This document shows positions 31,601-32,747 of a stretch of DNA of 32,747 nucleotides, piece after piece. The notes under the pieces are model-generated. The model saw nothing but the letters and a program-made list of their open reading frames with translations, was not told the DNA's origin and did no database searches. The stretch is from an uncultured Clostridium sp. (GTDB lineage Bacteria > Bacillota > Clostridia > TANB77 > CAG-508), in contig CAMCQH010000020.1 of the NCBI GenBank assembly GCA_945877035.1, positions 1 through 32,747 of the forward strand, read 5' to 3'. Each line of letters opens with the position of its first letter. The first letter of the stretch is position 1. Position numbers and translations under genes: made by a program.

Positions 31601-31629
31601 TTGAAATATATCAATAATGATGCTATAAT
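31601..31629 (+). promoter_or_regulatory. Promoter of the orphan-gene cassette
   Basis: TTGAAA (31601-31606), 17-bp spacer, TATAAT (31624-31629). Transcription would start near 31636, leaving a leader of about 104 nt before the 104-aa gene. Confidence 0.8.
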
Positions 31630-31645
31630 GTAAAATACAAAAGGC

Positions 31646-31732
31646 AAATAGGCCTTTCGAAAAGTTTCGGAGGCCTATTTTGAAAATAAATAGCCTCCGG
31701 ATGTAAATAATAATTTATCAATTTTAGGAGGC
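31646..31732 (+). promoter_or_regulatory. Leader with mutually exclusive hairpins
   Basis: Four segments can pair in alternative ways. A (31646-31655) pairs perfectly with B (31671-31680), 10 bp, with an inner 4-bp extension. B, extended to 31668-31680, can instead pair with C (31688-31699): 7 bp, one bulged C, 5 bp. C (GCCTCC, 31693-31698) can also pair with D (GGAGGC, 31727-31732), which is the Shine-Dalgarno sequence. A-B pairing would free C to mask the ribosome site; B-C pairing would expose it. The pairing is seen directly; the switching and any ligand are inference. Confidence 0.55.
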
Positions 31733-31739
31733 GATAAAA

Positions 31740-32054
31740 ATGAAAAACACGAGAGTTGATTTTCAGTGGACAGAAGGAGGAAAAGAGCATAACAAAATAC
31801 TAGATCGCCAAAAGATGTATTCCATTTTTAACGGCCTGGCAGAAGGATATGCGGGAGATGATAATGAGATTTCTACTAAAATGGTTGAAGACATTATTCC
31901 ATATGTAGATAAAATTTCTATAAACAAGGATTATAACGAAACGCAAGACACTCCCATGATTTCCTACGAGACAGAGAGAAACACAAAAGTGTTGAAAATC
32001 AAACGGTGTCACAAGATTGTTTGGGCGATACTTGATAGGTATTGCACTGAATAA
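31740..32054 (+). CDS. Orphan 104-aa protein in switchable cassette
   Basis: 104 aa, no signal or membrane helix, mildly charged. I do not recognise it. Sequence landmarks are DFQWTEGGKEHNK, LDRQKMYSIFNGLAEGY, VEDIIPYVDKISI and RCHKIVWAILDRYCTE. Start ATG 31740 with TTAGGAGGCGAT, 7 nt spacing. Base use is less AT-rich than the neighbours (GATCGCC, GGCCTGGCAG, GCGGGAG), suggesting recent acquisition. It has its own promoter, leader and terminator, so it is an independent transcription unit of about 460 nt. Confidence 0.7.
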   Translation: MKNTRVDFQWTEGGKEHNKILDRQKMYSIFNGLAEGYAGDDNEISTKMVEDIIPYVDKISINKDYNETQDTPMISYETERNTKVLKIKRCHKIVWAILDRYCTE

Positions 32055-32060
32055 CACGAA

Positions 32061-32098
32061 AAGGAGAGCCTCTTTAATTAGTAGGCTCTTCTTTTTTG
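32061..32098 (+). terminator. Strong terminator of the orphan-gene cassette
   Basis: AAGGAGAGCCT (32061-32071) pairs with AGGCTCTTCTT (32083-32093), 11 bp with one G-T, 11-nt loop, followed by TTTT. It begins 6 nt after the stop codon. Confidence 0.9.
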
Positions 32099-32192
32099 GT
32101 TCGACAGGAATGTCGTTTTGCTAATCGGTGAAAGTCCGTAGTGGAGGAAGTGTGCATCAAAGTTCTGACTCGAATTTGGGACTAGACTGGTA
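32099..32192. ncRNA. GC-rich structured island, candidate RNA
   Basis: In 32101-32190 42 of 90 bases are G or C, about twice the surrounding level, without an open frame. CGACA-GGAA-TGTCG (32102-32115) is a perfect 5-bp hairpin with a GNRA loop, and CGG...CCG (32126-32138) encloses TGAAAGT. The phrase GGTGAAAGTCC resembles a stretch found in group II intron domain I, so an intron remnant is possible; I could not place it in a known riboswitch class. Strand and function are not certain. Confidence 0.35.
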
Positions 32193-32500: not shown

Positions 32501-32747
32501 ATGCAACAATTAAAACGAGCAAAAGGTATAACGCTAGTAGCGTTAGTAGTAACAATTATAGTGTTATTAATACTAGCTGGAATATCAATACAAGCACTAA
32601 CAAACACAGGAATATTTGGACAAGCAGAAAATGCAAAAAAAGCATCAGAGATAGCAAGCATAAAGGAAAAAATATCATTGGATATTTATGAGAAACAATT
32701 AGAACCACCATTAGGAACTATAACAGATGAAGAATTAAAAGGCATAT
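32501..32747 (+). CDS. Second pilin-like protein, 3' end outside window
   Basis: 82 codons visible from ATG 32501, AAAGGAGG 9 nt upstream; the gene continues past the window. A basic start (QQLKRAKG) is followed by ITLVALVVTIIVLL and ISIQALTNTGIFGQAENAKKAS. This is nearly the same N-terminal module as the 60-1265 protein: ISIQALTN, the G-F/L-F/G-QA pair and NAK are shared. A Gly precedes the Ile, so prepilin-peptidase cleavage is plausible (G before I), but mature position 5 is Ala instead of Glu. The head domain is not visible. Confidence 0.75.
   Translation, partial: MQQLKRAKGITLVALVVTIIVLLILAGISIQALTNTGIFGQAENAKKASEIASIKEKISLDIYEKQLEPPLGTITDEELKGI

Follow-up and report, generated by a model that had tools for sequence, protein, structure and literature searches.

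The window, a 32,747-nucleotide (nt) stretch of DNA, is an entire contig (CAMCQH010000020.1) from the 1.70-Mb, 65-contig assembly of an uncultured Clostridium sp. Near its end, the messenger RNA (mRNA) of a gene encoding a 104-amino-acid (104-aa) protein is predicted to begin with a chain of five arms, Z, A, B, C and D, in which neighbours pair in turn, so that the Shine-Dalgarno site would be either hidden or exposed. Because the same chain precedes many different small genes in related gut bacteria, the data suggest a shared switch, seemingly undescribed so far. The arms in the window leader are the following.

31640 to 31645, + strand: arm Z (AAAGGC), pairs with 31652-31657
31646 to 31661, + strand: arm A, partner of Z or B
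31666 to 31680, + strand: arm B, partner of A or C
31688 to 31701, + strand: arm C, partner of B; its positions 31693-31698 pair with D
31727 to 31732, + strand: arm D, the Shine-Dalgarno site GGAGGC, partner of C

A preliminary description had recognized three competing pairings. These are correct as arm pairings, with A-B of 10 bp and C-D of 6 bp as described, but B-C comprises 14 bp instead of 12, and the fourth pairing, Z-A, had been overlooked. A-B joins AAATAGGCCT (31646-31655) to AGGCCTATTT (31671-31680) without mismatch and is lengthened in the minimum free energy (MFE) structure by CGAA (31658-31661) paired with TTCG (31666-31669). B-C pairs 31666-31674 and 31676-31680 with 31688-31701, leaving one bulge. 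In C-D, GCCTCC (31693-31698) pairs with GGAGGC and covers the Shine-Dalgarno sequence of the downstream gene, as had been proposed. Finally, Z-A joins AAAGGC to GCCTTT (31652-31657), Z lying a few bases past the expected transcript start. Folding was computed with ViennaRNA, pseudoknots and proteins not being modelled; the MFE of 31636-31760 was -30.6 kcal/mol compared to -17.86 ± 2.93 kcal/mol for 200 shuffles (z = -4.35). The remainder of the transcription unit is as follows.

31601 to 31629, + strand: sigma-70 type promoter TTGAAA-17-TATAAT with extended -10, matching 11 of 12 consensus positions
31740 to 32054, + strand: controlled gene, an open reading frame encoding the 104-aa protein of unassigned function, 33 homologous genes
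32065 to 32097, + strand: stem AGAGCCT/AGGCTCT followed by a T run, likely terminator, by inspection

The predicted promoter would place the transcript start near 31636, in good agreement with the leader of about 104 nt described before. Since the likely terminator lies 3' of it, the 104-aa gene looks like the sole gene of its unit, as had also been claimed; the stem is missing from the list of the terminator scanner, whose loop limit is 8.

To find further leaders, we used two covariance models: R1, built on 16 leaders, and R2, built on 27 cores spanning Z to C only. The E-values of such models are rough, and the genomes compared are drafts. With E ≤ 0.1 as the limit, R1 matched 30 of the 210 genomes of the genus, several of them with a different gene behind the leader. 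That the leader stands before many different genes had escaped the preliminary description. R2 was run on overlapping genome samples from the genus (210), the family (292), the order (287) and the class (196). In the class sample, it matched only the window's own genome (1/196, E ≤ 0.0005), while 34 of the 287 order genomes matched at E ≤ 0.001, the true leaders there belonging to the own family and one other (L192, L193 and L194). We inspected 34 of 74 places at E ≤ 0.02 in the genus and 34 of 60 in the family, leaving aside the weaker rest; the tallies of 62/210 (genus) and 52/292 (family) are hence not counts of true leaders. In another batch of 27 inspected loci, a frame followed the leader in 15 and none did in 12. 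A pattern scan of genomes gave 55 stretches; the 10 with a local GC below 0.45 were inspected, yielding nine true leaders and one locus without a gene (L083), and the other 45 were set aside uninspected as likely chance.

To be counted, a leader had to show arms B and C together with a Shine-Dalgarno site and a gene (just a 36-aa frame in L067); 46 qualified, 36 of them below 80% similarity to one another. Three loci lie outside the counts: L201, L056, which is a remnant with no gene, and L075, almost identical to L074. L177 and L181, which have a gene, were not counted as leaders. L165 has the chain but was dropped as its frame failed the filter. Fifteen loci look like chance (L178-L180 and L183-L190, 11 in all, as well as L195, L205, L206 and L207). 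The nine carriers in named collections are labelled uncultured Clostridia bacterium, Clostridia bacterium or uncultured Clostridium, and three come from goat gut. As the preliminary description had noted, no aptamer consensus is recognizable: Rfam 15 gave no match in the window at the gathering threshold, and below it the strongest match to overlap the leader (E 0.83) was on the opposite strand. No description of the leader was found in the open-licence literature among the matches listed.

Comparison of the 36 divergent leaders supports the on/off logic proposed earlier. In the full-length RNA, the hidden form dominates in 30/36, and the form present just before D is made is computed to leave D free. 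The computed folds show the pattern expected of MS2-like kinetic control on nascent RNA, a site hidden at equilibrium and a metastable intermediate predicted to be open. Conservation in alignments A2 and A4 lies, by eye, mainly within the pairing arms. Most aligned leaders carry similar letters (CUUUCG...UUUCGGAGG), but in L018, L067, L073 and L175 the letters of arms and loop are replaced and the pairing is retained; leaders without common letters still keep the chain. Because a bulged U shifts an arm off fixed columns, we relied on a swap test, in which arm C was first picked by its fit to its own B, and B:C was then repeated with C searched freely for each pair.

Since the arms swap letters while pairing parity persists, we favour an intrinsic kinetic gate on the nascent RNA, to which we give a probability of about one half. 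Domino-like folding of the five arms would hide or expose the ribosome start site, the outcome being set by whether a ribosome occupies D ahead of chain closure.

Several observations weigh against this reading. C:D pairing does not exceed 0.5 in 6/36 leaders, and the open form is favoured in 4/36 (L013, L018, L168 and L198). On fixed columns, A:B is weak: in A2, 82.0% of pairs form, about as in shuffles on most measures, and a one-column slide scored higher than the true register; in A4, 83.1% are paired, with a covariation score equalled by 5/500 shuffles. Because the leaders were found with models that contained B:C pairs, B:C pairing was partly selected for. Retention of the pairing by homologues of the 104-aa gene, set beforehand as a test, was borne out in part: the chain is complete in 17/33 genes (15 in the genus, plus L078 and L081), partial in L005 and absent from 15. 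Fourteen of these 15 were folded; L006 and L041 hide the site by other pairings (0.11 and 0.06 unpaired), and in the remainder the site is 0.29 to 0.97 unpaired, several being computed as open.

The main rival is a trans-acting protein, small RNA or ligand that would select the pairing by attaching to Z, to A or to the A-B loop, the chain being its read-out. The similar letters of most aligned leaders fit such a factor, a common signal would account for different genes sharing a leader, and a trans RNA or protein opening an arm would count against the kinetic gate. However, the four leaders with replaced letters retain their pairing, and no universal unpaired core was seen by eye, nor any Rfam match. 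The ligand aptamer or protein site considered in the preliminary description is unsupported, the leaders with the most divergent arms sharing no unpaired core by eye, and we regard a trans factor as rather unlikely.

Two further alternatives seem less likely still, and about equally so. One is ermC-like attenuation, in which stalling of a ribosome within a short upstream frame would disrupt a hairpin and so release the site. The window has a candidate for such a frame, lying over arm C.

31680 to 31706, + strand: candidate 8-codon upstream frame TTG...TAA with GGAGG 6 nt ahead, not conserved

Closed frames of at least 4 codons after a Shine-Dalgarno-like word occur in 8/36 leaders, and L057 reads ATG CCT TTC GGA... 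However, 28/36 have no frame by this test (frames running into the gene, as in L062, being uncounted), the frames begin in different arms and span 7 to 15 codons, and the very similar L003 and L004 differ by one base in the loop. The other is that there is no switch: a hidden ribosome site would keep the gene low, the upstream arms merely assisting the hiding hairpin, which agrees with the dominance of the hidden form. An intrinsic terminator attenuator is not borne out, as at least 5 T of 8 directly follow C in only 8/36 leaders, and at most 3 of 8 in the window by inspection. Lastly, the RNA thermometer suggested earlier, consistent as it is with a hidden site, is very improbable: no opening was computed from 15 to 70°C in the window (0.001 at 37°C, 0.010 at 70°C), and the mean over the 36 leaders was 0.10 at 37°C and 0.14 at 55°C.

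The 104-aa gene, previously called an orphan, is not strictly so. A profile of 20 proteins matched 29 of the 210 genus genomes at E ≤ 0.001; after L042, L043 and L044 were dropped, matching only within longer, seemingly unrelated frames, 26 genomes with 27 genes remained, the window's included. Six further genes in two other genera of the 292-genome family sample brought the total to 33. These homologues surfaced only via whole-genome searches, the protein having no match in collections of genome contigs, viral contigs, plasmids or phages. The protein itself, judged by eye, is not hydrophobic. Against Pfam it gave a single match, short of the cut-off (15.6 versus 27 bits); among the 20 members the best E-values were 0.004 (Pfam), 0.0093 (NCBIfam) and 0.029 (PHROGs), each family being matched by at most two members, and a sequence search of the PDB gave nothing under E 0.14. 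In the window, a cell-wall hydrolase gene precedes the unit, according to a profile scan of the window proteins. Among L001, L011, L013, L015, L040 and L045, homologues often follow a gene ending like this hydrolase, and others adjoin a gene that we take to be dnaE-like from its peptide; such sites may be insertion spots. L056, with a leader and no gene, and L038, with a shortened gene and no leader, seemingly occupy the same site, as if the unit decayed piecewise.

The genes of the 46 leaders, together with that of L208, encode 47 proteins in 17 clusters (blastp E 0.001). The 104-aa family accounts for 17 of the proteins, small CxxCxGxG zinc-finger proteins for 6 and the L057 family for 5, the rest falling into 14 smaller clusters. 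Comparison of the 104-aa and L057 families by hhalign gave E 0.00039 with a probability of only 35%, which leaves their homology undecided; the 17 clusters may therefore conceal remote kin. Ten leader-served proteins had no Pfam match at the cut-off, and the zinc-finger protein of L171 matched DnaJ_CXXCXGXG and Anti-TRAP below the cut-offs. Gene GC exceeds that of the flanks in 43/46 cases (mean +0.068), a difference biased upward by the intergenic DNA within the flanks. L196 carries a pair of zinc-finger genes, both preceded by a leader of their own, between genes that look host-core-like by eye.

Pattern scans of viral contigs gave five matches; L208 proved to be a true leader, unlike L137, L209, L210 and L211. 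L208 sits on a 31.7-kb viral contig, where tail, holin and amidase genes (PHROGs E 1.1e-14, 2.6e-14 and 6.9e-5) come before the leader and an 82-aa gene follows it, an arrangement that resembles phage morons. Searched against viral contigs, the L208 protein matched its own contig only and the L171 zinc-finger protein had no match; against the phage collection, the latter gave eight weak helicase matches (E 0.007) and the 313-aa protein of L192 none. We tentatively propose, at less than even odds, a new aptamer-free class of regulatory RNA, a five-arm relay in which pairing parity, more than the letters, would hold the information. It would work as a latch held by the ribosome, staying open in use and closing when idle, and would be a ready-made control part of moron-like, self-contained genes travelling between gut Clostridia and the phages of these bacteria.

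In 14 leaders of genes outside the 104-aa family (L057, L060, L062, L066, L158, L164, L166, L170, L173, L174, L176, L192, L193 and L194), the promoter hexamers have a TTTACATAA/TTATGTAA-like word between them or close by, which may be a shared operator; a TTTACATAA-like promoter word was counted in 15/46 leaders with a loose word set that carries no chance estimate. A GTAACT word recurs between C and D, often in a small hairpin (for example in L010, L012, L018, L073 and L081).

Immediately 3' of the terminator lies an element of about 52 nt (32099-32150, GGTTCGACAGGAATGTCG...GGTGAAAGTCCG), found with 83-92% identity in other genus genomes, some with several copies, often near contig ends. A DNA search with this region matched 21/55 genomes, the own included, some via other parts of the query. 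The element could mark one end of a mobile repeat, possibly of a group II intron-like kind (E 1.6); five relatives gave no Rfam match. The gene at 32501-32747, truncated by the contig end, has a prepilin-like N terminus (N_methyl, below cut-off).

The nearest precedent is the maturation gene of the phage MS2 (Leviviridae), for which translation is reported to be confined to freshly synthesized RNA: once settled, the fold of its leader hides the site, and a transient shorter hairpin leaves it open (PMC6071253). MS2 offers one gene of an RNA phage, whereas here five cis arms serve DNA-encoded single-gene units and 17 protein clusters. According to PMC6733600, the hairpins of aapA3 and hok type I toxin mRNAs form during transcription, compensatory changes are reported, and sequential metastable hairpins over the aapA3 Shine-Dalgarno sequence are proposed on genetic evidence. 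Sequential hairpins would govern Shine-Dalgarno access in both systems, but the transient hairpins of aapA3, as presented there, hide the site early, whereas here the computed form preceding D leaves it free, and most leader-served products are, by eye, not small hydrophobic peptides. Translational riboswitches share the anti- and anti-anti-Shine-Dalgarno logic but differ in that no aptamer was recognized here in Rfam. The translational attenuators of erm and cat likewise consist of arms that compete one after another, up to the Shine-Dalgarno sequence; they have four arms rather than five, and no conserved leader peptide was found here.

If true, these leaders would represent a regulatory RNA family outside Rfam 15, with selection acting on mutually exclusive helices more than on sequence. 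They would also offer a natural example in which to test whether cotranscriptional strand exchange can switch translation. The leader marks single-gene units of unassigned function in uncultured gut bacteria, which may share one mode of expression, and it provides a handle for locating further such units.
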